Assembly (NCBI RefSeq): GCF_020520425.1
Contig: NC_079491.1
Coordinates: 32,107,449-32,171,448 of the forward strand
Reading direction: 5' to 3'
Source: Spinacia oleracea
Lineage: Eukaryota > Streptophyta > Magnoliopsida > Caryophyllales > Amaranthaceae
Length of the DNA stretch: 64,000 nt
The notes beneath the pieces were generated by a model. It was not told the DNA's origin, made no database searches, and was given only the letters and a program-made list of their open reading frames with translations. The position numbers were made by a program, and so were the translations under genes. Positions 13,153-39,900 of this stretch are shown here, in pieces; position 1 is the stretch's first letter, and each line of letters starts with the position of its first letter.

Positions 13153-13157
13153 CTTTT

Positions 13158-17506: not shown

Positions 17507-18412
17507 TCCCTTCCCTTTGTTTGCTCTATGCTATTTGCTAAGCCACCCAAGGTTCAAACCTTGATTCAAGCATTTTCCCAAATTCCTTTTCCTTTCTTTA
17601 TTTTTCCTTCTTTATTTCCTGCTTTCTTAATTTACTGGCGGTTCTCTTTTCTTTCTGTTTCTTCCTTCCATTTTTCTCTCCTCTGTTTCCCCTTTTGCCT
17701 CACCTTCTCCGCCTGTGTCTCCTTCTTCGCTTTGCTCCCTTTGATCCAGCTTGTTGCTTCTTCGCAGTTCGTCTTATCTTGTGCGGCGGCGCTATTCTTC
17801 TACGACGATCGGAACTCTTCCAGCCTGTGGGAAGCATTGAATTCATTACCTGACGCAATTGAATTGGTTAGTTAGGCAAACCTTCATTCCTAGATGATCA
17901 TTCGATTGGTAAATAGTTCATTGCTTCCCACATGCTTGAAATCTTTCCGCCTTTGGTTACTGGTTAGGATGGTGGTTTGATTAACAACTTGATAGGTTGT
18001 TAACAGGTATGTTCTATATTTATCATCTACTAATTTTGAGTTTTTTTTGCGATTTAGGGTTTTTTCGATTAAATCTTGAATCTGGAAATTGTTGATTCAG
18101 AGTAATTTTGGGGGTTTTCTTTTGCAATTTACCTCTTTTTCGATTGCATCTGTAAATTGTTGATTCTGGTGCATTAATCATCTTCAGCCTTATGTTATTT
18201 TTTGTTGCTTCCATTAATTCTCTTGATTACATGTTCATTCGTAGGTTGGAGTGTTAACTGTGGTGTTTTCTCCCCTTAACTGTGGTGCATTAATCCTTTT
18301 TCTCTTGATTTTGGGTTCTGGAATTAATCCTCTTCATTACATGTTAATTCATACTCTACAGTATTACTTATGGTGTTTTAGCTTCACACTTAGATTTCTA
18401 AGACAACCCTGT

Positions 18413-18538
18413 TTTTTGGGTTCAACTTGTGCACATCCCTCTTTTTCCTGGGATAGTACAACCTTCCCCTTACTCTTGGGTTCGGCTTGTGCACATCCCT
18501 CTTTTCCTGGGATAGTACAACCTTCCTTTTACTCAAAA
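18413..18538. repeat. Tandem duplication, about 63-bp unit, in Helitron 5' region
   Basis: Two copies of CTTGGGTTC..CTTGTGCACATCCCTC followed by TTTTCCTGGGATAGTACAACC lie head to tail with few differences. They are upstream of the probable first promoter of the Helitron. Confidence 0.8.
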
Positions 18539-18654
18539 TCACACCATGCTGCCTTTTTTTATTATCCCTTTTTTTGTGGCTGTGTGTGTTAGAGGGCTTT
18601 ATCAGTTGTCCTTTTTCCAATTTCTAGAACTGCTGGTTTCCAAAAGTAGACACC

Positions 18655-18665
18655 TATATATAAAG
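18655..18665 (+). promoter_or_regulatory. Candidate TATA box for the first Helitron gene
   Basis: CCTATATATAAAGGGAGG is a near-ideal plant TATA box. A start about 30 bases downstream would give a leader interrupted by one or more introns before the first ATG (20979). The acceptor CACAG just upstream of that ATG supports a spliced leader. The assignment to this gene is inference. Confidence 0.5.
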
Positions 18666-18704
18666 GGAGGGGGGTTCTCTTTCCTTTTTAGGGTTTTGCT
18701 TCAC

Positions 18705-18814
18705 CGGTTGTTTTTCTTTGTTTGGAAAGGTAGTGCAATCAACTTTGCTCCCTTTTACCAGTTGTTTTCCTTTGTTTGGAAAGGTGGTGCAATCAGCTTT
18801 GCTCCCTTTTATTA
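18705..18814. repeat. Tandem duplication, about 57-bp unit, after the TATA box
   Basis: CCGGTTGTTTTTCTTTGTTT / CCAGTTGTTTTCCTTTGTTT followed by GGAAAGGT(A/G)GTGCAATCA is repeated twice in tandem. It would lie in the transcribed leader or first intron. Confidence 0.8.
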
Positions 18815-20978
18815 CTCATACTAATAACAAGGTTAAGATTAGCTATGTGTTCATGTTAACTCACATAATTAGAGTGGTTGTAATGTTGCTTCTTGATGCT
18901 CGTTTGTTGTCAATCTAATGTAATCTGCCTATTTAAAATCCCAAGCCATATGATCTACCAGAAATTTTGTCTACCCTTGACGGAAATCCTCCTACGATCT
19001 ATGGACATGTATCGGTGAATACTGAATGTGCACTCCTTGGTCCTTTGCTGGTGTTTTTAAAAAAGAACATCCGTTTTTTTCCCATTTGTTTAGTGTTATT
19101 TTGTATACTCTGTGCACATACTTGTAAATTTATTGTCCGTTCTTCTGGGGTGCCATTCTTTCAGTTAACACAAGTTTCTATATAATACAAGATGAGGATC
19201 ATTATGCACTAAGGTAGTTATGTAGTCATATCCCTAAGCTGTGATGAAATATTGAGATGTTTATGCATTGAGATCCCTAATTCAGTTTGCCGTCTTTATT
19301 GGTAACGTCCCTGAATTTTGAGGTTCAATGCTGTAACAAGTTGCCTTGTTGCTTGGTCTTTGTGTTGGCTAGGTCGTCGTGTTGCCTTTTACTGCACTTT
19401 TTCCCTGTCACTTGTGTGTGTGTGTGCGCACATACACAATATAGAACTATTTTGTCTATGCATAACTGCCCTTTGATGCTAATTTTTATCCGTGTAGTTT
19501 GGAGCGAACACGTGCCTCTGTTTCCAATTTTTGTAATTAGGCATGTTTTATCCAGTTGTTGTTTGGCATATATTTGCTAGAGTAGTTAGCTAGCTAATTT
19601 ACGTAAACTGATGTGTAACTGCCGTTTGTTACTGTCTAAGTTTTGCATTTTGGATCCGTGTTTTTATCTGGGGACAACTAATTTAGTCATTTGTTCTTGT
19701 CTGTTGTTGCATAGGCAGGACAGGTGTTGCAAGCATCATTGCTCGGTTTGGTTCCGAGTGTTTCCGGCTATCCTTGCTTTGCCTCTTGAGTGCGTTAGGT
19801 TAGTGCCCGAACTATTCTGCCTGCTGTTCATTGTGCCGGTTATTATAGTTTTTCCGTCCTGGCCTGCAATACAGGCAGCGTTGGTTTGAATAGATTGTGT
19901 TCTTGTTGCTTAGTTGTATGCATATACATGTTTTGCCATTGCCTGCTGGTTTATTAACTCTCTTGGGGGTTACCAAAGCATTCATTTCCGTCCGAGTTTC
20001 CTCTTTTTCCCTGTAATATTTGGGTCACAACATTAGAGGTAGTCAACCCTTCAACCGCCCTCTAGCCTTATCCTTTTATGCTTATAGTGTAAGCCCTAGG
20101 TGTGCATCCATGTGTGTGGTGATGTTTTGTCCATTGACCTGATTATATATTTGTCTTTGGCTTGTTGTGATAGCATACTGAAATGGGACAATTGGGTGGC
20201 AGTTAACATAGCATTGCAATTTTCAGCAGTCACACACTAATTACTACGGGGTGATTCGGGGTATCAATCTGTTACTATTGGTATGTTTAGTCGTAATATA
20301 GATGGAGTATCGTGTATTGTGTGTTTGTTGGTAGTGTTTAAGGTTTACACACTGAAGAGAGTTCAACTGTCCCTGGATATACAGTGCCACTAAAATCCCA
20401 AACATATAGGATAGCTCAATATCAATCGAATCCTAATACTATAAGTAAGTATGGCTGACGGAGTCACTGTCTCCATGTAGTCTGCCTGACTGAATAGCTA
20501 CCTATAGTGTGCTTACTTGAATCAGACTGTGACCTATAGTGTGGTTGGCTACAAGAGTTAACGAGAACCTAAGTCTTTTGGAACCGACTCACCTTTTTCA
20601 ATTGGTCCTAACTGACAACACGTACACACAGCTAATAGTGGTGAGCCCAGCAAGGTTTCCCCCCTTTATGTTTATCATACACTTACATCCCAATATTTTA
20701 AAAAATCCAGTGTTAGGTCTAGGTTTGTGCTAGGGTGGTTAGCCAACATTTGAGTGTTTTAGTTTTTGTTGCTGCCTGTAGAGCAGTTGTATAGTGGGCT
20801 AACAAGCTAATTGCCTTGTTCATTTTGCATGGTCATCTGCAATCCTGATTTTAAGTCCAACAGCGAGTTCTTGTACTTCTTGCTTTCAGTGACTAACCAT
20901 ATACGTGCCCAGTCTCAGACTGTTTGCTTGCTTATGTGCCTAAAATCCCCTTAATTTAGCCTTTTCCCATCACAGGTT

Positions 20979-21959
20979 ATGGCAGTGCCGCCCGCACAAA
21001 TCCGTATTCCTTTTCAGCCTCTTTTGAGGCAGGTTGTAGAGTGCTTGCACTTTCCAAAGCCAATGTACGATATGTTAGATATAGATAAAAATAATGTTTG
21101 CGTGGCGGTGAGGCCGGGAACGAGTGCAATTGCTTATGTGTACATTGGCGGAGAAGCTCCTACACTGGAGGAGTCTTGCGAGAGAGCTGTTGAGAAGGCT
21201 GTCCGTAGCCTTATAAAAAAATATGATGTTGTTGTTGAGGATTTTACTTCTGCTAGCAATAGGGCCCTTGAAAGATGTGCGAGGTTGTATCGTCTCAAGA
21301 GAGTTGAGTTAGAGGGTATTGAAAGCGGACATCCACAGGTCCTGCCTCCAGAACATCATTGTATGGACATTCGAGTTTCTGTGAAACACGTGCGTCTGGA
21401 TTATATAGGAGTATTGCGCACCGTGGTTGCCCAGACTCAAGTCTTGCTTGCTCCTATTGAGCATCTCCAGTTTGGGCCTCACACTTGGGTTTGTTGGTTG
21501 ACATTCACAAGTCCGCACAAGAGTAATGCTATGGAGTCTGTTGTTGGGGATTATACAGAGACTCTTGAGGATGCTAAGCAAAGTGTAGCAAAGAAGGCCA
21601 TCTATTGCTTGATGCGCCTCTATGCTTTTGAACTTGTAGATGCGAACTATGGGTCTGGGAAATACGCTGCTGTTGTGTATTCTCTTGAACAAGAAAGTTG
21701 CTCGACTGTGAGGGAGCGCATGTCCGGGGTTAAAGAAACTATTCAGCCTAGCGCCCTTGTGATTGAGCAAGACTGCTTGACTCCCCGTGGTTGTCCATTT
21801 CAGATACCCTCTATGATTACTGCTCCTCTCCCCCCCAAAAAGCGCATGTCCAGACCCTCTTTTGTCAGGCCATCTGTTCCTGGTTCTACTTCTGCAACCC
21901 CGGTCTTCTTTGTTCCACCTGAACTTGACACTGTGTTCAAACGCCGGAAGACTGTTTAA
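20979..21959 (+). CDS. Unrecognised 326-aa Helitron-borne protein with two dsRBD-like repeats
   Basis: I do not recognise a named family. Residues about 15-93 and 140-222 look like two copies of one fold. Each has a helix (PLLRQVVECL; GVLRTVVAQTQ), beta-like strands (AYVYIGG; WVCWLTF), then an acidic loop and a long C-terminal helix (TLEESCERAVEKAVRSLIKK; TLEDAKQSVAKKAIYCLMRL). The shape resembles double-stranded-RNA-binding domains, whose last helix has the A-K-x-x-A-A-x-x-A-L pattern. This is inference. The tail is Pro-rich and ends in basic FKRRKTV, a possible nuclear signal. A splice acceptor (CACAG) lies seven bases before the ATG, so the leader is probably spliced. It is followed in the same direction by Rep/helicase, about 860 bases from stop to start, suggesting an accessory role or a captured host gene. 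Confidence 0.75.
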   Translation: MAVPPAQIRIPFQPLLRQVVECLHFPKPMYDMLDIDKNNVCVAVRPGTSAIAYVYIGGEAPTLEESCERAVEKAVRSLIKKYDVVVEDFTSASNRALERCARLYRLKRVELEGIESGHPQVLPPEHHCMDIRVSVKHVRLDYIGVLRTVVAQTQVLLAPIEHLQFGPHTWVCWLTFTSPHKSNAMESVVGDYTETLEDAKQSVAKKAIYCLMRLYAFELVDANYGSGKYAAVVYSLEQESCSTVRERMSGVKETIQPSALVIEQDCLTPRGCPFQIPSMITAPLPPKKRMSRPSFVRPSVPGSTSATPVFFVPPELDTVFKRRKTV

Positions 21960-22821
21960 CCTACCGAAATAGTTCAACCTTTGGGGTGTGAGCACACCGT
22001 GCTCTGTTTCGTGAAACTGCCTCCTCTTTTGATGGGACAAGCCTAGATGTATTCCTAGAATTTAGGTGGCTTGTATATGTAATGTTTGGGGTGATAGTTC
22101 TCTTTTGGTTCCCTCTTGCTGTATCGCCATACAGTTTCTCTTTTGTTAGCTGTCAAGCTTGTTAGGTAGTTCAAGTTGTAATGGTGCTATGTTTAGAAAT
22201 TCTGGTTCGTCGTATATGGCGATCATATGTATGCTTTTAATAGCAGTCAACTTTGTATTGAATCCTTATGTTTAAATGAAATTCAGTTTGTTTTGGAGCA
22301 CTCTTCTTTGTATCCTGCTTTACAGTGCTTTTCCCTTTCCTTGATGTATCGTGTCTCACTTCCCTGATGCTGCCTCCTGCTCATGTTTCTTATTGTTAAT
22401 TGCATTCTAAATTTACCTAGGGTTGTATGATATGTAACTGTAAGTTGGTGGACACACCAGACTAACATGTATGTCTATTCAGGTCTGTAGGTTGTGTTCT
22501 CAGTTATTGAATGTTGGGTTTTGGTTGAGGAGAGGCTCTCACTTGTGTTGTTCGTTTTGTACACAGCGTGTTCTTTGTGCCTTTGTTTGTCGACTTAGCT
22601 TATTTTGTGTTTGCAGATTAAACAGCTGATGGTTTGTGCAGGGAACTGAACATTTGGAAATAGGTAGCGTGCCAACTTATGTGATGAGTAAGTTCCTCCG
22701 CCTTTTCATGCGTGTGGTTCTTTTTATTAAGTGTCTTACACATAGCCTGCTATGAATTCTGTTAAACATAGATCAATTCTTGAGTAGTTCGTATGTAAGC
22801 CGTCCAAGATGCAGCAAGCGC

Positions 22822-25800
22822 ATGAGGAGTGTGCAGGCCATGGCTGAGCCTACAGGTTCATGCAGGTAATGGTATATAACAAAGCCATGTTCCATAGTTA
22901 CTTTTCATGTTTATAAACAGGCTTATTCGTTGTTTTACAGTGAGTTGCCTGAGGTTAGAACACAACCACCCAAGAAACCGAGGGCAAAGAATACTAGGCC
23001 AAAACCACCAAGTACTTTTAAACATGTCCTTAAATCATCTTAATTATTAACACCTGGTTAAATATCCATCGCTAATATGTATACCCTGTGAACCAGAGGT
23101 GCCTGCTGCAGTGATTGGACAGCCATTACCGGCTGCACCTCTTGCACTATCTCCACCTGAATATTGCCCAAAATGTTGTGCAAAGAAGTTCCAATTTGAG
23201 TCGCTGCACTTTTGTTGCGGCAATGGAGAAATTAAACTAGCTTCCAATGCATACCCAGATGAGCTTGTAAAGCTATTTGATTCCCGAGACAGTGATGCTG
23301 TGCATTTCAGAACATATGCACGGCTTTACAATAATCTATTTGCTTTTAGCTCCCTTGGGGGGGACTTAAGTTCGAAGACCGAAAAAGGCATATATGTATT
23401 TAAGCTACATGGGCAAATATATCACTATCTCCCTAATTTGCTTCCCACTAATGACAACCCTAAATATTTGCAACTATACTTTTATGATGGCCAACACGAG
23501 GCTGAAAATCGGGTAGGCTGTTTCCCAGAATTAAAGCCAGAAATTATCGCTATCCTAATGAATGTCATGCAAAGAAACCCATATGCTAGATTTTTTAGAT
23601 CCTTACAAGAAATGGAGGTCCATGAAGATACCCAGATTTTACTTAACAAAAACACTGTGCTAAATCAGAATGTCTATAACGCTCCTACATCCGATGAAGT
23701 TGCAGTCATTTGGTCTGAAAGCACATCTTCCAGTACAAGTAGAAGTCCACATATATTGGTTTCCGGAAAATCAAACAGTTCCCATAGAATAATGCATTAT
23801 TATGGTTGTTATGATGCACTTCAGTATCCGCTCTTATTCCCATTTGGAGATTGTGGATGGCATCAAGGGCTTAAAAAGATGTCAACGGGTGGGCAACAAC
23901 AGCTTGCCACTCATCAGGATCCTGTCTTATCGTGTGCTGTCCACACTGTTGAAGACTTCTTGGCTCAAGAAGATAACCGTATGCCTTACTAATTTCATTT
24001 ACTTTGTTCTACCCATGGCTACATTCTTTTTTTAGCATATCTCTTTTGCATCTGTAATAACATATGGCCTATTGTTTTGCTTACCAGTTGCTCATCAAGG
24101 TCGGGAAGGATCAGCTAAGCATATCTCTTGCAGAGAGTATTATGCTTATAAGCTTCAGATACGCCCTTGTAACATGCTGCTAAGGGCAGGGAGGTGCTTC
24201 CAACAGTACATTGTTGACATTTACGTGAAGATTGAAAACACTCGCTTGGACTTTTTCCGAAAGAACCAGCAAACTATCAGGGCAGATTTGTACCAAGGTA
24301 TACTCGACACTGTCGAGAGCGGTGAAAACAGTGCAGCTAATGTGGGGCATCGAGTTGTGTTACCACCAAGTTTTCTGGGGGGGCCTAGGGATATGAAAAA
24401 GAGGTATTTGAATGCGATGTCCTTAGTTAAGAAGTATGGGAAGCCTGATTTGTTCCTTACAATGACGTGCAATCCTAATTGGCCAGAGATTAAACAAGAG
24501 TTGGCTGTCGGAGAGGAGGCACAAAACCGGCCAGATTTAGTTTCAAGGATTTTCCGTGCTAAACTGATAGCGCTAAAACACCATATCATGAAAAAAAAAA
24601 AAATTGGTGAAGTTGCTGCTATGATATATGTTGTTGAGTTCCAGAAACGGGGGTTGCCGCACGCTCATTTCCTTGTTATCCTTAAACCCAATTCTAAGAT
24701 TAGAAGCCCTGCTGACTTTGATAAGTTTGTTTCTGCTGAGATCCCTCCTCTTGCCAACCCTCACTTGAGGAAGATTGTTCTTCAACACATGATGCATGGC
24801 CCATGTGGACAACTGAACCCTGATTGTGCGTGCATGAAACGGAAAGGTAATGAGGGGCACTGCAAGTATGGATATCCGAAAAAATTTGCTGCCGAGACAA
24901 CTAACAGCAGCGATGGATACCCACTTTATAAAAGGATAGATACTGGAGAAAGTGTTTGTATTCGCAGGGTTAATATGGATAACAGGTCAGTTATTCCGTA
25001 TAACCCGTACCTATCATCACTTTTTGATTGCCACTTAAACGTTGAGGTTTGTTCGACCATAATGGCAGTCAAATACCTGTACAAATATGTGTACAAGGGC
25101 CATGACAGGATCTCATTCAACGTGCAGGATGGTAGCACTGCTATTGTTGATGAGATACAACAGTACCAGGCTGGGAGGTGGGTTTCCCCGTGTGAGGCAG
25201 CATGGAGAATTTTCGGGTTCGATCTGTTTGAGATGTTTCCATCGGTGTTGCCTCTGCAAATACATCTGCCTAACTTGCAGACAATCCAGGTAATGCCTCA
25301 TGAGAATTTAGACGAGATCATTTTAAATGATAAAAGATCTCGAACTCAACTTACAGAATTCTTTAGGATGAATGCTGCCACACCTGATGGAACGGGCTAT
25401 ACATATGCAGAATTTCCAGAGCATTATAAGTGGGAGGGTAAAGAATGGAAAAAAAGAAGCAACAAGACCGTTGTTGTTGGCAGGCTCACTTTTGTAGCAC
25501 CTGCTGAAGGGAAACGTTACTTCCTCAGATTATTACTGATGCATGTGGATAGCCCGCGATCCTTTGATCATCTCCGAACTGTTGATGGATATAAGTGTGC
25601 CACTTTTCAGGAGACAGCTCTGCGGCTGAAATTGCTAGAGGAAGACAACGCTGTCGACTTGTGCTTAGCTGAAGCGTGTGAAGTGCAAATGCCGACTGCA
25701 TTCCGACAGCTCTTTTCAACAGTGCTGATCTTCTGCCAGCCAAGTGACCCCAATGCCCTCTGGTTAAAATACTACGACGCTCTCTCTGAAGATTATAGGC

Positions 25801-27407
25801 ACCAGTATCCGAGTTCTGATAGCAGGTCAAGGGAGCTCACTGTTAGATCTGTTGAGCAATCTCTTGAAGCAATGGGGAAATCATTTAGAGACTTTGGCCT
25901 ACAACATTTAAATGATTTTCAAGATGAAGAGTTCAGGCGAACAAAAGACATTATCGATGCACTTGATGCACCGATACCTCGGGACTGTATTGATGCCCGT
26001 AACACATTAAACCAAGCACAGCAGGAGGCATTTGACAGCATTATTGACCACGTTCTTAAAGGGAAACCTGGTGCATTCTTCATAGACGGGCCCGGAGGAA
26101 CAGGTAAAACCTTCCTATACAATGCTCTCTATGCAGAGGTTCGTTTGATGAACAAGATTGTCCTACCAACTGCGACATCTGGAATTGCAGCATCAAATAT
26201 ACCTTCTGGGAGGACTGCTCACTCTCGGTTTAAAATACCGATAGATTCTGATGCTTCCCTTGCTTGCGATGTTCCTAAACAGGGCAGTCTTGCATGTTTA
26301 CTAAAAGAGACATCGTTGATTATTTGGGACGAAGCTTCAATGGCAAGGAAAGAAAATGTTGAGTCATTAGACATGCTTCTACGAGACTTGTGTGATGAGA
26401 ATACCCTTTTTGGTGGCAAGCTTGTGGTTTTTGGTGGCGACTTCCGTCAGGTCCTGCCCGTCCTACCCCGCAAAACACAGCGAGAAGCTGTTGCTGCTAG
26501 CTTAGTGAGTTCTGTTCTTTGGCCTCGGTTCATTAGGTTCAATCTCACTGAAAATGTTCGGGCAAGAGAAGATCCCTACTTTTCTGCGTTTTTGCTTTCT
26601 CTTGGAAATGGTGAGCTGCAAACCGGCGAGAATGACCTTGTGCAATTGCCAATGCAGATAGTACACCCATCTGTGGTCGCTTCTGATCCTATTGCCGAAC
26701 TTACTGCAATTGCATTTCCCGAGGTAGATGTTTCCAGGTCCACCCCAGGAAATTTCACAACAACGGCTATACTGACCCCCCTGAATGAAGATGTTGATGA
26801 TATCAATGCTACCCTGATAGACAAATTCCCTGGAGAATCTGTTATGTACAGGAGTTTTGATACAGTTCTTGATGATAATAGCGCGATCTATCCTCCTGAA
26901 TTTATACACACCCTCTGCCTAGGTGGAATGAGCCCATACAAGCTCGTCTTAAAGAAAAATTGTCCAGTTCTTCTGCTTCGCAATATCCTGCCTTCGTCTG
27001 GCCTGTGCAATGGGACACGTATGATATGCAAGAATTTCTACCCGAATCTGATTGAATGCATGATCACGACTGGGCAGCACAGCGGAAGCCATGTTTTTAT
27101 ACCCCGAATTAGGCTTCGGCCGTCTGCATCTTCCAATTATCCTTTCCAATTTCAGAGGAAACAATTCCCTATAAAACTAAGCTTTGCAATGACGATAAAC
27201 AAGTCACAAGGGCAAACACTAAGCCAAGTCTCCATCTATCTTCCCCAGCCGTGTTTCTCCCATGGTCAGCTTTATGTGGCACTGTCTCGTGCTAGAAAAG
27301 CATGTAACGTCAAAGTTGTTTCAAAACAATCTCCGGGACACCAACCTGAGCACCATGTTAGAAATGTCATCTCTTATGATGTGCTCAGATTAGCCGGTAT
27401 CATATGA
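22822..27407 (+). CDS. Helitron Rep/helicase (HUH nuclease + PIF1-type helicase), 4 exons
   Basis: Catalyses rolling-circle transposition: the Rep domain nicks and joins single strands and the helicase unwinds them. Exons: 22822-22865, 22941-23011, 23097-23978, 24088-27407. Phases fit, giving 1438 aa with no internal stop. The N-terminus is basic/Pro-rich, then a CPKCC cysteine motif near residue 65. The Helitron-like N-terminal domain contains SCREYYAYKLQ. The HUH motif is LPHAHF (His at about 524 and 526). The paired tyrosines are about 662 and 666 in KYLYKYVYKG. Helicase: Walker A GPGGTGKT at about 1000, Walker B WDEASM at about 1080, GGDFRQ, and the C-terminal INKSQGQT and ALSRAR motifs. 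Length is typical of plant Helitron proteins. The start ATG at 22822 is the first in frame after an upstream stop; an unseen 5' exon is possible. Confidence 0.95.
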
Positions 27408-30070
27408 TATACAGGTAATCTATCACAAACCTTTTTATCTGCTTCCTGATTGTGCATTTACAGCTTGCTTTGTTATTATTCTTGTACGGCTTACTGTAAC
27501 CAAACATGTTCATGCCATGCAGTTGTTGCTCCTTTTTGTGCCTTTTGGTTTGTGCTGCAAATATGCCCGTGAAAAACAGCCCACCTGTGTAGAAAATCAT
27601 GCAAGCACATGCATTCTAATGTCATATGCAGGTTCCTGTTGCAGAGGAAATGATAAATAAGGTATATACCCTCTTCAGTTCTGTATGCCCTTACTTTGCT
27701 GCCTTTGATTCTGATTTATTTTAATTGAATACATCTTTGGTGAACATTCGTTGTTTTAGTGCGACTAAGTAATCTAGCATCACCCCTTATTTTCACCAGT
27801 CAATAAGGCTAGCTTATGTATAGAGACAGAAAACTTTTAGCTACAAGAAATTGAACAAGTTTGGCATAGGATCTTTCAAAAGTATTCACCCCGCATTTCA
27901 ATGTTGCTATCGTCAAGTATATATATACATGCTCTTATTTGTTCTTCCATTCAACTGCTAGCAGTTAATACACACTGTTTTGCCGTGCGCATCATATATA
28001 GGAGTTGAAATTATAATTCTCGGTTTCCTTCTGATTCCTAATAGACTTAACTGTTTGGTTTATTTAATTCAAATTTTGACTAGCTCTTCTCTCAAAAACT
28101 GGCAAAAACTCATAGACACATTGGAAACCTGGTGTGTCCCTTTATTCCGGATTTTGTACCTATGATCCAATGGTGTCATGCCAAATAATGTGCCAGGTAG
28201 ATGTCCATCCTCTAATACTAAGCTTTAAGCTTTGTTTTGATGCAGATCAAGAAATTTTTGGTGTTCATATATGCCAAGTGAGGGCTCTGATAGCTCATAC
28301 AACCTCATATTATTCTTTCTGTAAGTTCATTACACCCATCTGCTTAAATATCAACTTGCACATTGGAAGTAGCTAACTGATAAACACGTTTGCATATGTG
28401 CTATTTTGGTAGTATTTTGTGAGTCCCTTTGTGTTCTACTCTCATTATTAAAGCACCTAAGCTCAAGCGATTGGGTGACACTAAAACCAGTGTTATTAGG
28501 TCGTTTAAATGCAAGTCCTTAAACTTTAACATGGAGTTATTATAATAGCCAAAGAGATTCTATATTTTTCTGTGTTGCTCCCTCTTCGTTAATCCTTCTC
28601 CTTTTTGGTTTTCCAAAATAGAAATGCATATCCTGACAGAGTACTTTCAATTAGTATCTTCCTGCTATGCTTAACTGAATTATAGCTTGTACACCAGAGA
28701 TAACCTCCTTTTTTTGTGCACAGACCCCGGGTTCCAGTAACTGTTGTCAAAGGTTCTTTCTGTAGGATATTAGTATTTATAACCAGCCCGCTTAGATTTA
28801 TGTGGGCTCTTTTGCTTGCCTGTTTGGTCATTGTAGTTCAGATTCAGAACAACCAAATTGCACACGTTTGCTGATTAAACCGGTATTATGAAATACATTC
28901 ATATTGTAGCTTACTTAACACATCCATTGTAGGTGAGACATATTAATCACCACTTCCAGGTGAAAGAAAATAAAGTGCACACTTGTCTAATTCAAGCAGT
29001 ACAGTGCATTACAGAGAATCAAAAAACTACAACGAAATAATACGGACTGTCATTGGATTCTTGTTTCAAAGTAATATGAACTACATGTGAACATAAAAAA
29101 ACCTCATCTTTCTTTATTTTGAGAGTGAACCAAATGTAAACTGAAAGTTAGACTGTCGTTGCTTGCAGGTATGAGCGAGGTTCATGACGTATCCCCTCAT
29201 TTTGCCCACAGTTCCAATGGTGTATGCATAATTTAGTGCGATCAAGTTGTAAGAATAGACTGCTGAATTTGGTTTTGAGATTTGTGTTCTAAACTGTTAT
29301 AATGTCGTGAACATGCATTTGTTTCTGTATAGTAAGCATCCTATTAAATGTAGCCGTTCTCTTGGTCAATCTTCAAAAGGTTAACCACCAATTTTAGCAA
29401 GTTTCCTAATCGAGCCGGTTTTGTATCACCACTTTTACCCACTTCCCTACTCGAGTATTCCTAATTAAGGCGTTTTTTCCCCTGTCAACTTAGCTTGAGA
29501 ATATCACTTTAGACGCTTGCAACTTATCTATTACTAACTTCTTTTGAAATATACACTCGGAAACTGGTTATACGAATGTAACCATCATGGTTCTACAGAT
29601 GTTGCTCACCGTAATATAGGATGTTCCGTAACCCTTTAAATAGAAAATCTCGCAGAAATCTATGAAGCACTAAACTTTCATCATGATATTAATACTTCAC
29701 ACTAATTTTTCCAGCCTAACCTTATATAATGTTATTAATACTTCAGCCTCTTCCAAAGGTGTTTGTTTTTTTCTCAGGAAATAAAAAACCAGCAGACCAC
29801 AGTACATGGTCATACCCATTAGAGAGGTATGTATCCTTTTATATTGTAGTCCTTAAAATCAGCTGTACCTGGTAAAGATTTCCCTCTTAAAGTTTAAGGC
29901 AACACGTTTTTACATAGCAAAGTATGGTTTAAATAGTGTTAGGACATGGTAATACAAGACTTCACCTGCTACAAGGACAATAAAACACTATTCTGAATAG
30001 TTGATTTGCTGTTTTGCCCATGCCTCTTTGCTTACTGCTGTGCCTTTCTTTTGAACCACAGGTTTTCCTT
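27408..30070. other. Gene-free spacer between the Helitron Rep and RPA genes
   Basis: This is about 2.6 kb of AT-rich sequence with no supported coding region. Short frames on both strands show no recognisable domain. It probably holds the Rep 3' UTR and the distal promoter of the RPA-like gene. Confidence 0.5.
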
Positions 30071-30074
30071 CCCT

Positions 30075-30085
30075 CTATATATGAA
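30075..30085 (+). promoter_or_regulatory. Candidate TATA box of the RPA-like gene
   Basis: CTATATATGAAG is followed about 30 bases later by a leader (around 30105) that ends in TTTGTCAG|GTATGACC near 30177, a good donor. The leader thus appears to contain an intron (about 30178-30545) before the ATG at 30551. The placement is inference. Confidence 0.45.
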
Positions 30086-30284
30086 GATGTAGCACCCTCT
30101 ATTCAGTCCCAATCTTTTACAACCTAAGCAGAATTTTACAGCTTCCTCTCCACAATCAGAATCTGCAGTTTGTCAGGTATGACCAAATCAAATGGAATTT
30201 ATTGCTTTGATGTATAAGATCATAAATGTTTGCATTATTGTTTTTTAAATGCCTGCCAATTGAATATAGATTTGTTTTACTAGG

Positions 30285-30530
30285 TTTGTATTCTCTGCAT
30301 AACTGATAATTCAAAGTTATACAGTTACAAAAAAAGATGATGTTGTTATGTTAGCTAAAACAGAATTCATGATTATTTCTGTGGGATTAATCATATTTCT
30401 TTTCTTTGTATTCTCTGCATAATTGATAATTCAAAGTTACACAGTTACAAAATAAGATGATGTTGTTATGTTAGCTAAAACAGAATTCATGATTATTTCT
30501 GTGGGATTAATCATATTTCTTTTTCTTACC
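30285..30530. repeat. Tandem duplication, about 122-bp unit, in RPA leader intron
   Basis: Two head-to-tail copies run from TTTGTATTCTCTGCATAA through ATGATGTTGTTATGTTAGC to GTGGGATTAATCATATTTC. They differ at very few bases, so the duplication is recent. It lies between the leader donor and the start codon. Confidence 0.9.
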
Positions 30531-30550
30531 ATGTGTACAAACTCTAAGAA

Positions 30551-33500
30551 ATGAAGCCTGAACGCGTGTATCTGGATCAGCTAACCGAAAAAAGCAAGGG
30601 CTACAAGGTTAAGGTCAAGGTCGTAGAGAAAGGACCGGAAAGGAACTCTCCTTCAAAGGGAATCCTATTCCAAGGACTTGTGATGGAAGATGACAAGGTA
30701 TAATTGTTTCATTTCGTTTCCCTTTTTTTCATGCTTGCTTACATGTTCTCTGCCAAGTTTATTTCCATCTGTTTTTTCCCCATGCCTTTACTAAGCTGCT
30801 GACTTTTAGTTGCCTACTGAGTGTTCTATCTTTTAGAGTTAGTTCTAAGATGCTGCTTATTTCTCAAGCAGCAGTTGGTGTTGATTTTTCCTCTGAATCT
30901 GTCAACACATAATAATTTTTTAAAAAGGAAATTCCTAATATCTCCTTTACACACTCAGTACTAGAATGCTAATAATCTGTCAACACATAATATATTGGGA
31001 AAAAGGAAATCCCTGCTAATCTGTCAACCTGGAAATGATGAACACATAGTAGTATAACAAATATGAGTATCACAGACACTTCAGATCTGAAAAAGAGTTT
31101 ACATTATGAATATCGTCCAGGAGTTTTTTTTCCTGTAAACAATAACGATTTCCCGAATATGACTGCATGTTTAGTCACACGTGTTCACCACTGAAATTAA
31201 GTATATGGGGTTCCATGTTACTCTGTAATCATACATGTTTTATGTCGAATTGTATGCATGCAACTGCTATGTTTACATTTTTTCCCCCTGGTGTACTCTC
31301 ATTTCCTTCCCTGTTTGTGGTCTATGCATATGGTTTCCTATTCACGCTGCCATTCTGTTAACTTATTTAGTATTGATAGATACGTTAGATACGTTAACAT
31401 AGTAGCATCGTCCAGTGATTAGAATTTTTCATTCCGTAATACCGTCCAGTGATTAGAATTTTTCCCATTATAAATACCGTCCAGTGATTAGAATTTTTCC
31501 CATTATAAATACCGTCCAGTGATTAGAGTTCCCATTATAAATACCGTCCAGTGATTAGAATTTTTCATTCTAACTCCTTTCACTTAGTTGTCCATTCAGA
31601 AGAATAACTCGTAAAGTTGTACCTCCTCGCTCTTTAAAAAACATATGAACTCCTTACACTTAGTTGAAAAACATAAACATCCTACCTTCTTACTCTTCAA
31701 AAAACATAAGAACTGCTGGCCAGCGTACGTCATCTATCAAATTATTGGATTTCCTGGATACGACTGCATATTTAGTCGCACGTGGTCACCACTGGAATTA
31801 GGTTTCTGGTAATAACTCTTTAATCATCAATGTTTTATATCGAATTGTATGCATGCAACTGCTGTTTTTTAAAAAAAAATCTGGTATAGTCTTATTTCCT
31901 TGGCCTGTTTGTGTTTTTTGCATATGGCTTGCTATTTAAGATGCTATTCCGTTAACTTATTTAGCATTAATAGATACCTTAAATAAGTTAACGGAATAGC
32001 ACCGTCATAAGGCATAAAACTATAATGTAAAAGCAAATAGATAAATACATACAACACTTGCAAATTTAGGGGACATGAATAACACTGCTTCATTAATAGG
32101 TCTAACATTAGGATACATTGGATCGAAGGTAGCTCTCTATACATTATGGGGGCAAGACATGACGGACGGTCTGATCAAGCCTGTGCCCGGGGAGGGCCAG
32201 CCACAGGGCAACCAATGCAACCAGGACAGGCTCATAATAGAGCTGTCCAGCGGTTACCTCTTGTTGCTCATATAGTGCTGGTCCTTAGGTGGTTTGTAAT
32301 TCTGAAGGCGCATACCTTGGGGGGACAACCAATCGAACCAGACATTCATGGTGTCAACCCTCAGTTTCATAAACCTTCATCTCATCAAACCTACACATGG
32401 CCTGGTAATTTAACTGTATGTCGTGTTAGTATCGACAATACATCAGACCATGGTACTTAGTATCGACAATACATCAGAACATTCATGTTAATTGTGATAT
32501 TTCTGTAAGTATCCAGGTATTCATACACCATCTAAGCATGCTGAACATGATATGTTGTGTACCAAAGGGTACAACAGACGACTCGATCTTCACATCACTT
32601 GCCATTTGAGGAGCGTTTAGTTTTGAGGCTTTTAGGTGAATAGGGATTTATTTCCCTTCAGAAAACAGTATACCTGAATAGAGGATAGGTAAGAGAGTGA
32701 GTTGGAGAAGGTTGCTTTTTATAGGGGAGTATGCCCATACAGTTGTTAGTTTATATTAAATTATGATGCAAAGTCATTGGTGAGCTTTATCTATTCACAC
32801 AGTGGAGGGCAGGGAGGCCCAACCATGAATAAGGTTGGATGCCATGTGTATCAGTCTGATTTATGCAGTAAAATCAGCAGTTTTAGGCCACCCAGATTAG
32901 TGATTTAAATGTAATATTGACCAGAATCAGCTATTCCCAAAATGCATGTTTTCTATGTCAGTCCTATACATCAATGTTCCCCCACAGGTGTTAGGCTTTC
33001 TTCTGTTGCTTCATTCCCAATGCATAGCTGCTATCTAGAAAGGATTCAGTTCTGCCTAAACCCGTTGCCTTAGGAAAATAGGCCTTTCGACTATGCTCCC
33101 ATATTGTTGACCATGTATAGTTACGGTTTTATTTATCAAATATGCACACATGTACTGGTGGTAGTTACTTATTTAAGCTGTTGTATGCTATTGCTTTATG
33201 CAGGGAAATCGAATGCGTGCTGCACTTTTTGGAAATCAAATTGATGTCTACAAGGAAGCTATTGAACACTTAGGGAGTTATGAGATAGCTAATGCTACGA
33301 TTAAAGCCAGCGATGAATATTGGAAAGCCAAAGACGCGAAATACGGTCTGCTTGGATACCAGATGAGCTTTGGCTCACAGGCGGTAATCCAACGAATGAA
33401 TGCTGAGTCAGGGCCAGTATTACCGGAATACCAATGCCTAGCCACCATCCCAAGAGTGTATGATCCAACTGACAGATTTGGTAAAGAACCTACCCTCTTC

Positions 33501-36290
33501 CCTACTATGTTGTGATACTATACACATGCGCCAATACTTATTTCTATGCTCCTTTTATTTGCAGATATTGTTGCTGTTGTTCTATACCTCGAAGAAGAAG
33601 CACGGAAAGTCACTGGATTTGAACAACGCGAATACTTAGTTCGTGAAATTGTGGTGACAGACCATAGGTACGACTCATACTCTATTTAAAAATCTAAACA
33701 TCTTGCGCTTTAATCATCAGTGCCAAACCTTCGCCACTTTTGCAGCAATGAGCAGCCAATCACAATTACTGTTTGGAACGAGCTGACTGGAGAACATTGC
33801 AAACCGCTCTCCTCATGGGCAGAACAGTTCACTATTTTTGGATTCACGGCTTTGAGAGGCAGCTTTCATAAAGGTTTTGATTACCTTAATCCTCCATTAG
33901 TGTCTGAATACACAGTTTCAATTATCTTACAAAAGACGCTGCGAAATGTACAGGATTTTCCCTTGGTTCCACCATGTCTACTAGAATCATTACTGATCCA
34001 AAAGGAGAAAGAGCAGACGCATTGAGGGAATGGTAAGACAGCACATGTCATTCCTTATCCTTTAAAAACACAACATAAAATACCTGGCAACTAACCTCGA
34101 TATGTTTTGTAGGGTCAAAAATCGCACCGACTGGCTGAGTGACAGGCAAGCAAGGGTATTGGATGTCAGGAACCCTACGAAAGAGAAGGTGATCATCACA
34201 CTGGACTCCCTGAAGCTGAAAAGGGTATAAACCTTTGCTTTTGTCCTATGTACCTTGATTATCGTCTACAATTATTAAAACTCCAGTCAATGACACAATA
34301 ATCTCAGATGATTTCATATTCCCAACAACAAAAAACTAATATTTCTAGGCTGCCATATCAGTGTTGGACTATGTTTGCATTGCATAACTGCTAAGCTAAG
34401 CTAAGCTAAGTAAGGAAAAAATGTCAGCAAAAAGAAAAAAAAAAACGGATAATGGAAGGAACATCAAAGATATTACATAGCCTAAACTAAATTGCGTTGC
34501 ATAGCTACTAAAAATAGATAGGGAATTTAAGGACTGCTACAACATCATCATTGTGTTTACATTGCATTGCATAACCTAAACTATATTGCATTGCATAACT
34601 GCTAAACTAAGTAACGACAAAATACCATCCAACCAACTACGCTAACTTTACATTCAGTGAGAACAGAAATACATGTGACATAAGTAATACACAGGTAGTT
34701 TTTGTCTGATTAGAGCTGTTATAATGTTGCTTCATAATAAAGCGATCATATGCGAAAAAGTGACGGCCTCAAGAAAGTGGCCCGGGGTAACTGAGCTTAA
34801 ACCTGTTGGAAACCCACACTCATATGCGAAAAAGTGATACACAAATAATGTATGTCTTATTGTTCCGGTAATGTAGATGCACTTCAGAATATAAAGAAGT
34901 GTGCCTGACTTGTGAACCTGTCGGATTTTTTCCCTAGCCTTACAACACCTTGCAAGAGCAACGCCATTGGCTCAGGGTTACAATACCCAACCCTCAAATG
35001 AGCACGATCAATGCATACCTGGGGTGCTCTGCTTGTGGACGGCGTGGAGACATTCCAGCAGGGACATCCTACACTTGCACCAGATGTAAGGCAGATACCG
35101 TGTCTACTCCAAAGTAAGCTGCAAACTTTAGAATGCTTTGTTACAGACGAATACATGTAATGCTGTGTCACACTTTTGCAAATGATCATTGCAGGATTAC
35201 CTACAATTTCGTGGCATCTGATGGGACTGGCACAATGGAATGCACCTCGTTCACTGAAGATTCTGAAAAGTTGTTCAGGATGACGGCTGCAGACACGTTC
35301 AGGATGAAGCACAGCGTAAGCCTATCTCCCTTAGACTAACAAGTCAACCATGGAAGAATGTTGCAAAACCCATTAGAATGTACACATATACAAATTTAGA
35401 AAGAAAAGAACGCAACGCTGCACATTGTTATAAAATTAGGCGACCACTGTAAAAAATCAACTTTAAATTTATCAGGTTAAAACTGCAAATTACATAAGAA
35501 ATTAAAGACAAACAGAGACCACACAAAGGGCATTCGAACTTGTTATACACACTTCCCTGATGACATTTAAATTCTTACAGTGGACTATCAAAAACTTAGT
35601 AGGTAGATAACTTATTAAACAATCAGCCATATACTTGCATATGAAATTAGGAGCTTATTGCAGTTTGTGTTGCCTTTATTAATCCTTCGGTGTCAATTGT
35701 TTCTTCTACCATACATAGGCTGGAAAACGTTTCCTAAGCTTAACAAACACCTGTATTTCCAGAATGATGCAGCGACCTTTGAACAGCTCCAGGAAATGCT
35801 CAAGTCCAACCACTTTCTGCTGGAAATCGGTCCAACAATGGGCCTTTCAAAGAACGGCGTGCTTGAATGGTGCTTGAAATCGATTGATTTGGAATCTGGG
35901 GAGGCCCAAGCAGAAAATGTTGAGCATCACTTTGCTGATCAGCAGGCTGAACAGGGTCCGAGTGCCAGCCAGGTGCTTGCACAAGCAACAATTGCTAGGC
36001 AGCAGCTTGAACAACCAACACTTCGTAGGAAGAACCCTGAGCAAGCAATGGTTACTGGGAAGCAGCCAGAGCAAGGAGCCATTCCTCAAAAGAAACTGAA
36101 GCAGCAGCTTGAACAACCAACACTTCGTAGGAAGAACCCTGAGCAAGCAATGGTTACTGGGAAGCAGCCAGAGCAAGGAGCCATTCCTCAAAAGAAACTG
36201 AAGCAGGAATTCATAGCTGAGCTCCATGCTGCACAGGGGAGTATTGCAAGACAATCAGACGAAGAGGAGGATGACTCCTCTGGTAAGTAA
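30551..36290 (+). CDS. RPA70-like single-strand DNA-binding protein of the Helitron, 9 exons
   Basis: Replication protein A-like genes are known cargo of autonomous plant Helitrons and probably protect the single-stranded intermediate. Exons: 30551-30697, 33204-33480, 33565-33667, 33746-33873, 33954-34032, 34113-34224, 34938-35113, 35195-35315, 35763-36290; phases fit (about 556 aa). Successive OB-fold regions are recognisable: one around LLGYQMSFGSQAVIQ, one containing ITVWNELTGEHCKPL and RIITDPKGERADALREW, and a C-terminal one. The C-terminal OB fold has a zinc ribbon, CSACGRRGDIPAG then YTCTRC (C-x2-C, 13 residues, C-x2-C). The tail is Gln/Glu/Lys-rich with a perfect 34-residue duplication. 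The final TAA at 36288-36290 lies inside a consensus donor (CTG|GTAAGTAA), so a short further exon is possible. Confidence 0.88.
31149..31972. repeat. Segmental duplication within RPA intron 1 (31149-31382 and 31746-31972)
   Basis: The two segments share blocks GACTGCAT(G/A)TTTAGTC, CGAATTGTATGCATGCAACT, TTTCCTT, CCTGTTTGTG and GTTAACTTATTTAG, at roughly 80% identity with small gaps. Between them lies the minisatellite at 31400-31565. The spread suggests an old duplication inside the Helitron cargo. Confidence 0.75.
31400..31570. repeat. Minisatellite, five copies of CCGTCCAGTGATTAGA unit
   Basis: The unit ACCGTCCAGTGATTAGAATT plus TTTCCCATTATAAAT is present about five times, with unit lengths of about 28-36 bases. 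It lies within the 2.5-kb first intron of the RPA-like gene. Confidence 0.9.
31943..32000. repeat. Perfect 21-bp inverted repeat with 16-base loop
   Basis: The left arm 31943-31963 (GCTATTCCGTTAACTTATTT plus A) and right arm 31980-32000 are exact reverse complements. The left arm is the end of the duplicated segment 31746-31972. It could be a foldback from replication-fork template switching. Confidence 0.9.
34391..34412. repeat. (GCTAA)n short tandem repeat
   Basis: Four copies of CTAAG lie in tandem in the intron before exon 7 of the RPA-like gene. A related phrase, TTGCATTGCATAAC, recurs nearby at about 34376, 34564 and 34588. Confidence 0.7.
36001..36206 (+). repeat. Perfect 102-bp in-frame tandem duplication in RPA-like exon 9
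   Basis: Bases 36001-36102 are repeated exactly at 36103-36204, adding 34 residues (each starts near QLEQPTLRRKNPEQ and ends near QKKLKQ). Identity is complete, so the duplication is recent. It keeps the frame and lengthens the Gln/Lys-rich tail beyond the zinc-ribbon OB fold. Confidence 0.95.
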
Positions 36291-36604
36291 TTCAAGTGCA
36301 TCATTAGTTGTCCCTTTTGCTTAGGATGAAGAAGCCAGATCCTCTGGTATGTAATTCAAGTCAATCAGTCATCCACCATTTTGCTTAGCTAAGATTAATG
36401 TCTTGTAAAATAATTAGTATTGTAGTTGATCTACCTTGGAAACTTGTAAGATATAGGTAGTCTCTACTTAGCCTGGAATCAACGAGTCCTACACTTCATG
36501 CCAACAGAAATAGCTTCTGTTGCGATCGTATAGAAGGTGGGAATGAAGCCTCACTATCTAGAACCCCTTACATATTTTGTAATATAAACATAAGAACTCT
36601 TGTT

Positions 36605-36740
36605 CTATTCTAACTCGGGCACTATGCCGAGTACCTTATATTCTAATTTGCACGAGTGCTTTGTATCTATATTCCATTATAACTCGGGCACTATGCCGAG
36701 TACCTTATGTTCTAATTTGCACGAGTACTTTGTATCTATC
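36605..36740. repeat. Tandem duplication, about 70-bp unit, near Helitron 3' end
   Basis: Two copies of AACTCGGGCACTATGCCGAG, then TACCTTAT(A/G)TTCTAATTTGCACGAG, lie head to tail. Each contains the small palindrome CTCGGGCACTATGCCGAG (CTCGG / CCGAG). They lie about 170-300 bases before the terminal hairpin. Confidence 0.85.
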
Positions 36741-36901
36741 TTCCATAGACAAAATTATGATGGTCGCCAATTCGTACGGTTCCATAACTTCGTGATTGTT
36801 TGTGTCATCTTTTACCATTTGCAATTGTTTTGAGCTTAATGGTTAGCTCGGTGTTTGAAGCACGCTAATTAAATATACCAAACCGATTCTAATATCTTGG
36901 G

Positions 36902-36936
36902 GGACCGCGCGCGGTAGCGCGCGGTCCAACAACTAG
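36902..36936 (+). terminator. Helitron 3' terminus: GC hairpin plus CTAG
   Basis: A perfect 11-bp GC-rich stem with a 4-base loop is followed by AACAA and CTAG, abutting host T at 36937. In Helitrons this hairpin acts as the transposition stop signal. The stem-to-CTAG gap of five bases is shorter than the usual 10-12. Confidence 0.95.
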
Positions 36937-39900
36937 TGAGAGAAAATGAGCAATTTAAATTGTACGTTTCTTTTAGCGACTTTTATGGTTGTTTTCGAGT
37001 ATCAAAGTCGAATGGCAAAACGATTGGTGCTTGTGAATTCAAAATACAATGTAGTTTTGAGATCATAAAGCATTGAGTTTAAACGCTCAGCTTTACCAAT
37101 GATTAACAACCTAATATCTTTGTCCATTTAATTCTCGAATGAGTCTAGTCCCTAGACATTTGAATAGATCGATGCTTAGAGAACTTTAGAAGCCTCTGGT
37201 AAGATCATCTAGTTGAAACAGAATATTCAACATTAAATGGTAAGAACTTTGTTGGATTGACATTGGACATGTCTAAACAAAATATAAAAGTCAACACTAG
37301 AGAATTCAATTCTTAAGGCTATTAGAAAGGGTACAAGAAATAGGAAAACAAAGGAACAAATGAACGGAATTTACAATTCCGTTTCTACCTAAAAGTTAAT
37401 GTTTAAAGAGAAGTGACCTAGCAATCAAACATCCTTGGTATCATATACCGCTTGAGGTTCTTACTTCGGTAATAACTCAAACAATGGAAGCTAGGGTACA
37501 CTAATGACATACAAGTGGGAAATGAAGCATGGCATTGCTACATTAGTTGTAGGGTCATCTAGTTTGTTTTAAGTCCTTTCAGAGGTTGGAACTTAATGGC
37601 TATTTTGTTCCAAAATCAGCATACCTAAATTTCTGTTTCAAACACAGAAAGACTCACATTCAAGAAAGACAAAAACAATGTTTGTTTGTTATTTGAATGA
37701 AATGGTCAATTACGGGTTGAGTCAATATGCTTGATTAAAACAAACAACTCTTTAACAATAAAAACTTTACTAGGTACAAATCAATCTCTTGATTTGAGTT
37801 CCACTAATCTTTGGCATTGTTACTTAGACCATGTCAACAAGTTAACATTCAAAAGCTCTAATTTGATGGACTTTTGAAAGTTGATTGATTTCTAGATCAT
37901 TCAAGGCGAGCTAGTCTTACTTGTTGAAAGTAACAAAAGATATGAACTATTGTTAGAACGCCTAGACAATAGAGTTCAAAAGCTAAAGAAAGATTTTATG
38001 ACTTTATTATTTCACATGGATTTGAGTGAATATAGGTTTATTTACTCAAAGTGATATACACTTGAATCTGTTTGGCTAGTTCAAAGATTCAAAAGTATAA
38101 AATCCCCTTGGCAAGAAATCATAAAGATCTAGGATAGATCATGTTAATGATTACTTGAGACCAAAAATGATCATCAATGATTGTGTGTTGTAATTTCACG
38201 ATCTAGTTCCATGAGATATGGCATATCTAAGTTGGAACGATCGAAGTCAATTAGTACTTGATTCGATCAATGATGAATCATGAATACTTTTCCTATAATT
38301 TCTAAAACAAAATGCTCAACTACCACCAAACTAAACCAATTCGTCAAAGCTATTGAAAAGTAATTTCAGAATATCTTTTCAATAATATATATCTAGAGAG
38401 TTGCTAAACTCAGTGGGAGCTTAGTGTTTGTTATTCGACAAACTAAGGCCCAAGTATGGATATATGTTTCATTGTGATTCAAATGAGACACACGGGTATT
38501 GTTTCTACCACGAATTTTTGAGAACATAATGTTTGTTTGCTCGAAATAATGTCCTTTTGGAGATTCGTTTCCAAAATGACAAGTGGGAGAAAATAGACCT
38601 CGAAAGTCTTCGAGGCGAACAACAAACATAAACGGACATTCTGGAGGCTTTTCGAAGTGCTTTAGAAAATCCGAACACTTATTCTTTAAGGACTTTAGAA
38701 GTGGCTTTAAAGAATAGACATCTCTTAGAAGACTTTACAAGTGCTTCAAGGAGAACAGAATATTCAAAGGACTTTTAAGTGGCTATTGATATTCTATTGT
38801 TTGATACCCAAGTAGGCATAGAGTTCAAGTCGCTGGAACTATGAGATTCTTCTATTAGATAGTGAAGAAACATATAGATCAGGACAATGAAACTATGAGA
38901 TTCTTCTATTAGATAGTGAAGAAACCTGCAACTTCCAGTCAAACTATTATCATGTAGATTAATGAGTTTGTGACTTGTAAGAAAGCTATGACGAAACCCA
39001 GATTCCCTAAAATGGTTAGAGGCCATATATAGACTCAAATGTTTAATTGGTTAAAGGCCATAAAACATACTCAATGTTTTGATGACAAAATTGAAATTTT
39101 GTTGATTTGCAAGAATAAGTTTCACACCTATTGGTTGCAAGTTTGTTTTAAGGACAAAAACCATCAAACATGGAATTGTGTTCACACACAAAGCTAGATC
39201 AGTTGCTAAAGGTTACAAGCAAATTCATGGCATGGATTGTGTTGAAACCTCATGCATAATCATAATGCTCAAGTCTATAATTCAAGCAATGATTGCATAT
39301 TGGTACATATGGCAATTGGATGACAAAGTGTATTCCTCAATCAGATGTTGGAATAAACTATGTACATGGTATGTCATAGGATTTGTGGATCCAAATAAAT
39401 GCTTAAAAAGGAAAGCTAGCTTATGAAATCTAAGTACAAATTTAAGCAAGCAAATGGGAATTGGAACTGTATTTTAGTGAAATTAATAAATATTTTAGTT
39501 TCATAAAATATACATGAATCTTATAGATATAAGAAGTTTAGTGGGAGTACATAAAAACTTAATTGGTCCTATGTGTATCACACACATATCTCTCTGTTAT
39601 GAAATAACATTCAAATGGTAATGACTTAGATTTGAAATTATTCATCAATGACGGACCATGGTGAAACTTAGTGCATACTGGGTATTAAGATCCTTTTACA
39701 AAGATCTTATGATATTGTTTTAGATTAAGTAATGACATTTACTAAATCAAACACGAAAGAATCCATTGGAGATATTCGACCCATATGAATAAACCTAAGT
39801 AAAGAATGTTTGAAATATGCATAAGCATTTACTAAGTTAAACATCAAAGAATCTAAGTAAGATTCTTAACCTATATTATATGTCAAAGAATTTAGCTGGA

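Follow-up and report, generated by a model that had tools for sequence, protein, structure and literature searches.

A 19.5-kb spinach Helitron inside a young LTR retroelement: evidence for a recently multiplied family with a third gene and a phased target-site pattern

The window analysed here is a stretch of 64,000 nucleotides from spinach, Spinacia oleracea (C5:32107449-32171448), and all comparisons described below come from one assembly. It contains an LTR retroelement with a Helitron inserted in it, the genes of the Helitron lying in the order extra gene, RepHel, RPA-like gene. The relevant features are the following.

13158-42953, + strand: host LTR retroelement, with the target-site duplication CTTTT at 13153-13157 and 42954-42958
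13158-14537, + strand: 5' LTR, 1380 bp
17404-36936, + strand: Helitron with corrected ends, 19,533 bp, preceded by A at 17403 and followed by T at 36937; copies share the ends and differ in the flanks
17404-17456, + strand: 5' end of the Helitron, terminal TC and two hairpins
20979-21959, + strand: extra gene, 326 codons and a stop, its ATG directly 3' of a CAGGT acceptor-like site
23051-23989, + strand: N-terminal open stretch of RepHel, splice sites inferred, no Pfam match
24036-27407, + strand: main open stretch of RepHel (Helitron_like_N, HUH, Y2, PIF1-type helicase)
33204-36290, + strand: RPA-like gene, eight inferred exons, a single open frame of 507 codons once spliced
33204-33480, 33565-33667, 33746-33873 and 33954-34032, + strand: RPA-like gene, four of the eight inferred exons
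34113-34224, 34938-35113, 35195-35315 and 35763-36290, + strand: RPA-like gene, the other four inferred exons
35999-36206, + strand: tandem repeat in the last RPA-like exon, 102 bp, in frame, two identical units here
36902-36927, + strand: 3' terminal hairpin, 11-bp perfect stem, 9 nt from the 3' end
36937-36947, + strand: target side of the insertion, T at +1 and AAA at +8 to +10 (36944-36946)
41574-42953, + strand: 3' LTR, 1380 bp

The two LTRs (TG...CA) differ at 2 of 1380 bases, both G/A, in agreement with the original prediction that the Helitron is nested in a young LTR element whose LTRs carry about two differences. The PBS is of the methionine type (TGGTATCAGAGCC), and no gag or pol domain was found in the frames scanned. 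LTRs, PBS and target-site duplication are all present; as the scanned frames are without a gag or pol domain, the host element is probably non-autonomous, and its reading as an autonomous element is rejected on these frames. A search for the empty LTR-element site, in which the flanks of the Helitron were joined (300 + 300 bases), returned full 600-base matches at 98% in 40 of the 40 places scored (2,292 candidates in the same assembly), so that the site is vacant in every relative scored; these empty sites belong to further retroelements of the family and do not represent the orthologous locus. In the four that were read base by base the junction is as in the window, with 3-5 mismatches per 120 bases. 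The empty sites place the insertion of the Helitron between A and T, with no target-site duplication.

Comparison from copy to copy fixes the outermost bases of the Helitron as TCCCAAACC...CTAG. Terminal inverted repeats are absent, and the 5' TC and 3' CTAG (CTRR) ends are those of a canonical plant Helitron. A 5' boundary near 17.5 kb, at position 17507, had been proposed; the other copies in the genome move it by 103 bp, to 17404. These 103 bp are present at 97-100% in all seven other fully read copies, which diverge from the window copy no more than 3 bases from 17403/17404, and six further copies whose 5' ends were read share them and diverge there in like manner. With 17404-17506 as the query, the best 40 of 167 candidates include 14 places that match at 97-100% along the full 103 bases, and the next-best match there is 87% over 92 bases; position 17507 is thereby ruled out as the 5' end. 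At the other end, position 36936 was correctly placed: the CTAG|T terminus is preceded by a perfect hairpin, as predicted, with a stem of 11 bp, and copies diverge directly after CTAG. The element is structurally complete, as had been claimed, over an extent that starts 103 bp earlier than supposed.

The 3' hairpin has a fold z-score of −5.85 and lies one base closer to the end than the maize range. The 5' end is also structured (z-score −4.95, with 0 of 200 shuffles as stable): a first, imperfect hairpin (17404-17428) is followed by a second (17433-17456) with a perfect 10-bp stem and a TTAT loop. Among six older, diverged copies the second stem is retained over all 10 bp in C4_162 and C5_113 and over its inner 8 bp in C2_32 and C4_171, and is lost in C3_112 and C3_60. 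A perfect 22-bp inverted repeat with a 16-nt spacer was also noted in the interior of the Helitron, at 31942-32001.

The main RepHel stretch matches PF14214 (E 3.3e-56) and PF05970 (E 2.5e-64), and its alignment with the Helraiser chain (PDB 7lcc) covers residues 23-1111 (E 1.8e-240). An uninterrupted Rep/helicase with HUH, paired tyrosines and helicase motifs had been predicted. The protein (P0003) has the HUH motif in the form HAH at residue 209, the paired tyrosines in YLYKYVYKG from residue 347 and Walker A at residue 685; 'uninterrupted' holds only in the sense that the frame is open on either side of an inferred intron, the gene comprising at least two coding stretches. Helentrons (HLE2) carry an endonuclease domain in RepHel, insert at T|T and have sub-terminal inverted repeats. 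At E 0.001 the Pfam matches found for P0002 and P0003 include no endonuclease domain, the insertion is at A|T, and the 5' palindrome pairs with itself and forms no inverted repeat with the 3' end, all of which speaks against a Helentron/HLE2 identity.

The spliced product of the RPA-like gene contains Rep_fac-A_C (PF08646) above cut-off (E 2.1e-7), with REPA_OB_2 (PF16900) just below it (4.4e-5), and the spliced frame is open in all seven aligned copies. The prediction of an RPA-like gene with consistent exons is therefore borne out in that eight exons join into one open frame; it falls short at the first exon, which was not found by motif search or tblastn. The 102-bp repeat of the last exon varies from one to three units across copies, each encoding about 33-34 residues.

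The extra gene upstream of RepHel has an open frame in all 14 family copies, and its ATG is preceded by CAGGT in the window copy as well as in 8 of 10 relatives. Its homologues in the genome amount to 82 matches, which merge into 54 places. At 36 of the 41 merged RepHel places the nearest extra gene lies upstream and on the same strand, with spacings that range from abutting (one 15-base overlap) up to 85 kb; this does not hold for the other five, which comprise the most distant RepHel (47%) and four at 69-75%. When only the RepHel places of 47-75% identity are counted, the extra gene is present at 17 of 22, the chance expectation being about 0.06 of 22 by hand calculation. In an alignment of eight extra proteins, which share their start, 67 columns are invariant (the frame of L063 is lost near the end). 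The ratio dN/dS is 0.17-0.28 in seven older pairs and 0.42 and 0.48 in two closer ones, these being the 9 of 45 pairs that gave a value (the other 36 gave none, mostly for saturation); judged by these ratios, the extra gene is under purifying selection in the diverged pairs. Identity to the extra protein of the window is 42-49% in seven diverged relatives, and RepHel identity is 64-75% in 21 of 22 diverged places; the lower values of the extra protein would be as expected for a faster-evolving accessory protein. Additional ORFs are possible in Helitrons (PMC9033089, figure legend). The portions of the literature on Helitron accessory ORFs that were surveyed do not describe a conserved third gene in plant Helitrons, and such a gene appears to be new.

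What the extra protein may be was approached by sequence and profile comparison. Neither method gave a domain at curated cut-off in Pfam or a significant match in the PDB. Pfam Dicer_dimer, which we take to be a dsRNA-binding-like fold, was hit by three of eight sequences at E 0.035-0.05, below the cut-off, and in genome searches with PF03368 and PF00035 the extra-gene places are not among the matches listed. Against a profile of 17 dsRNA-binding domains from the same genome, the extra protein aligned over 61 columns with its first 100 columns and over 66 with its middle 105, and the two halves align to each other over 97 columns. The both-half and half-to-half alignments beat 100 of 100 column shuffles, at an hhalign probability of only 6-8%. 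Under other hhalign settings the middle windows reached 32-39% over 19 columns only, the first window 6% and windows outside the two halves 0.1-3.5%; a separate profile comparison gave 12.8% over 25 columns. A reversed dsRNA-binding profile, used as a control, still scored 13.4 and 16.0 against the halves, close to the 18.2 of the true profile for the first half. Taken singly, 5 of 8 sequences exceeded the top-scoring of 50 RepHel windows with the first half, 7 of 8 with the middle and 0 of 8 with the C-terminal part. A single-sequence AlphaFold2 model had a mean pLDDT of only 31.5. The resemblance is faint, and on balance we lean slightly towards reading the extra protein as a tandem of dsRNA-binding-like domains.

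A search for copies that share the 5' TC end and the 3' hairpin end gave 14 in the same genome, with both ends at 89-100% identity and differing flanks. Their size is variable (C6_57 is about 12 kb, and C6_3 measures 29.3 kb between its ends). The main RepHel stretch is open and of full length in 9 of the 14 (41 of 534 candidates scored); three copies are frame-shifted, C6_57 is truncated and carries a stop, and the RepHel of C6_3 is absent from the places listed (again 41 of 534 candidates scored). In the group that we call A, a deletion of one base in a homopolymer is found in two copies, and the first stretch of one copy contains both an additional base and a stop; these changes may be real or may be sequencing errors.

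The alignment used for divergence consists of seven of the eight fully read copies, C6_3 being left out. The seven A-group copies differ pairwise by 36-109 substitutions (0.18-0.60%), with single-copy branches of 0.09-0.26% in their tree, and nearly identical copies occur in the B-group described below; both observations agree with the earlier view of a young element in a recently moving family. In the seven aligned copies the window copy has 30 private substitutions over 17,332 ungapped columns (0.17%), a figure that sums the time spent in the donor lineage and the time since insertion. We converted divergences into years at two rates, of which 7e-9 is the alternative. The other, 1.3e-8 per site per year, is the rate applied to spinach LTRs (PMC6337768). 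The private changes of the window copy then correspond to about 133,000 years at 1.3e-8 and 247,000 at 7e-9, and the divergence of the LTRs to about 56,000 years at 1.3e-8 (95% 7,000-201,000) and 104,000 years at 7e-9 (95% 12,500-374,000). By point estimate the Helitron lineage is older than the LTRs, as it is free to be with donor-lineage time included, and the intervals overlap. The jump had been dated to within about 0.1 My from the age of the LTRs, and with values of 56,000 or 104,000 years this is a fair bound.

The youngest part of the family is a sister group of copies, B, defined as follows.

B-group members: C6_124, C6_57, C4_166, C4_8, C2_39 and C1_105, marked by a 15-bp insertion after 17628

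Six of these copies, compared over 1,700 bp of the 5' end, differ by 0-1 base; five differ by 0 over 1,700 bp of the 3' end, and five by 0-2 over 2,001 bp of RepHel; the comparison covers 3.4-5.4 kb per copy, omits the 3' 1.7 kb of C1_105 and the RepHel of C6_57, and does not count gaps. Over the 28,705 copy-sites compared, 3 changes are private, which puts the mean private divergence about 16 times below that of the window copy. The corresponding age is about 8,000 years (1,700-23,500) at 1.3e-8 and 15,000 years (3,100-43,600) at 7e-9. Their six locations are spread over four large contigs (C1, C2, C4, C6); the flanking sequences are unrelated, and the junctions are A|T. As a separate observation, three loci (C4:9033367-9035001, C1:124693687-124695321 and C5:11917359-11919864) have a 5' match (65-66%) and a match to the last 74 bases (87-89%) on one strand and 1.6-2.5 kb apart, and are likely short non-autonomous relatives.

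The target sites were examined in 33 distinct 3' flanks, 14 from family copies and 19 from other Helitrons with related 3' ends, one of which follows CCAG instead of CTAG and was kept in the counts. The non-family ends taken were 19 of the 21 reaching the last base on the 3' side, and 20 of 26 on the 5' side. The base at −1 is A in 33 of 34 5' flanks, and the base at +1 is T in 33 of 33 3' flanks; the exception, C1_87, is inserted at T|T. Of the 33 3' flanks, 26 carry A at +8, 31 carry it at +9 and 31 at +10. Both +9 and +10 are A at 29 of 33 sites (13 of 14 in the family), as opposed to 11.6% of the 12,037 A|T sites of the window, and AAA stands at exactly +8 to +10 at 22 of 33, as opposed to 4.3% of those A|T sites. 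Weaker peaks occur ten bases further on (A at +18 in 22 of 33, T at +20 in 21 of 33); on the 5' side the only strong signal is at −1. Insertion is thus phased: A^T, then A at +9 and +10. The downstream A-tract is also present in all four empty-site relatives read, which rules out that it is part of the Helitron. No account of a phased A-tract at Helitron targets was found in the running text of the portions of the literature surveyed (logos, being figures, fall outside this coverage), and the pattern appears to be new.

With the ends, gene content, empty site, copies, divergence and target pattern as observed above, the window very probably holds a complete plant Helitron of a family that multiplied within about 0.1-0.4 My, one subgroup having done so about 8,000-15,000 years ago (upper 95% bound 44,000). 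The element is of a known kind, and the family is more interesting than the copy in the window. The extra gene, the 5' hairpins and the phased target site go beyond the original description. Transposition by rolling circle would most likely follow the chemistry known from Helraiser and wheat Feng8. RepHel would nick the element at the TC end, its helicase would peel off one strand, and the RPA-like protein would coat this strand; peeling would halt at the 3' hairpin and CTAG, and the strand or a circle would be joined into a target A^T that has an A-tract about one helical turn downstream. With less support, the extra gene would provide a tandem dsRNA-binding-like protein that helps the element to evade small-RNA silencing. 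A bolder proposal combines these elements: the third conserved protein of this Helitron clade, with its two dsRNA-binding-like domains, would shield it from RNA-directed silencing and help to explain how 20-kb copies multiplied within a few thousand to tens of thousands of years, while the transposase would read a phased A^T and an A-tract one helical turn downstream. We put this forward tentatively, as a possible but rather doubtful whole.

Other readings of the same data have to be weighed. The window copy had been put forward as a candidate for current activity, and one may ask whether it drives the family at present; its host retroelement is young, and its two RepHel stretches, extra gene and spliced RPA-like frame are all open. 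Against this stand its 30 private substitutions and its 9 private replacements, one of the latter at RepHel residue 962, which is a proline in the other six copies and in Helraiser. The nearest of the seven aligned copies differs by 0.30%, so that no recent daughter of the window copy is seen, and the B-group is about 16 times less diverged. The replacement load itself is ordinary: the extra gene, RepHel and RPA-like exons of the window copy have 9 private replacements against 4 silent changes, the private coding changes of all seven copies amount to 43 replacements against 17 silent, and by these counts copies drift nearly neutrally after insertion. Because of this drift an open frame partly reflects mere youth, and it is therefore no proof of a working RepHel. 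That the window copy is the active driver seems improbable to us, and the B-group is the better candidate for recent movement. The near identity of the B-group could in turn be due to gene conversion or to duplication in the assembly instead of recent jumps, given that it rests on one assembly and on 3.4-5.4 kb per copy; but the six places lie on four contigs with unrelated flanks and A|T junctions, and conversion would need to have reached the 5' end, the middle and the 3' end equally. We regard this explanation as very improbable.

The extra gene might be a passenger, a piece of host DNA that was picked up a single time and is carried along with no function. Capture of gene pieces is common in Helitrons, and the protein has no domain at curated cut-off. 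Yet the gene has the same position and orientation at 36 of 41 Rep places, and still at 17 of the 22 in which Rep is only 47-75% identical; the 67 invariant columns in eight proteins (one with its frame lost near the end) and the dN/dS of 0.17-0.28 in seven older pairs also speak against a passenger, which is hardly to be expected. The target pattern, finally, could be nothing more than the AT-rich preference that Helitrons are known to show 3' of the insertion, as Helraiser prefers AT-rich DNA within about 20 bp, mostly in the 3' flank (PMC4778049). This is unlikely, since A is found in 31 of 33 flanks at +9 and at +10 but in only 13-15 of 33 at +4, +6 and +7: because A peaks at +9/+10 and not at these nearer positions, the signal is positional. 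Our further suggestion, that the extra protein counters small-RNA silencing, is made by analogy with the VANC proteins of other transposons, which act on DNA motifs.

The VANCs of VANDAL transposons are accessory proteins encoded by a transposon and counter silencing (PMC5735166, PMC10398659, PMC13317346); VANDAL is another transposon class, and VANCs are sequence-specific (PMC5735166, PMC10398659), whereas the spinach extra protein is faintly dsRNA-binding-like. Among known Helitrons, rice Mothra and its sister family (PMC4683698) likewise have TC/CTAG ends, a 3' hairpin, A|T insertion and an RPA-like gene, and a RepHel is described for the sister family, as in the spinach element; the size of 19.5 kb, the third gene, the 5' hairpins and the phased A-tract are seen here and not in the accessible part of that paper. 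Wheat Xuan-Feng (PMC13286980) also has a RepHel with HUH, two tyrosines and helicase motifs, inserts at AT, and has some copies that are >99% identical, as here. Feng8 was shown to drive mobilisation (PMC13286980), whereas the spinach family is only putatively active; RPA has no mention in the available text of the Xuan-Feng paper (PMC13286980), and the spinach element has an RPA-like gene. To Helraiser/Helibat1 of bats (PMC4778049; 7lcc), a reconstructed element, 1,089 residues of the spinach RepHel align with the catalytic residues kept. Helraiser shares the preference for an AT-rich 3' flank, described without a phased motif, and neither RPA nor a third gene is mentioned in the portion of PMC4778049 consulted. 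Proven-active plant Helitrons are rare, wheat Feng8 being the autonomous example found in the cited papers as far as these were available. A family with many open, nearly identical copies, probable short non-autonomous relatives and a precise target pattern would allow tests of what a plant Helitron needs and how it chooses its target, and the conserved third gene would allow a test of whether Helitrons carry a counter-silencing factor of their own.

The 64-kb window contains no RNA family at gathering score and no tRNA. Upstream of the retroelement, at 4452-5387 on the − strand, an open frame matches ARS2 (PF04959, E 1.3e-29) and may be all or part of a SERRATE-like gene. Adjoining frames with FAR1-like (below cut-off) and MULE transposase/SWIM matches, at 59666-62094 on the + strand, probably represent a Mutator-like element or a FAR1-type gene. 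Tandem arrays are found at 62588-63312 (276-bp units) and 45562-46240 (247-bp units).
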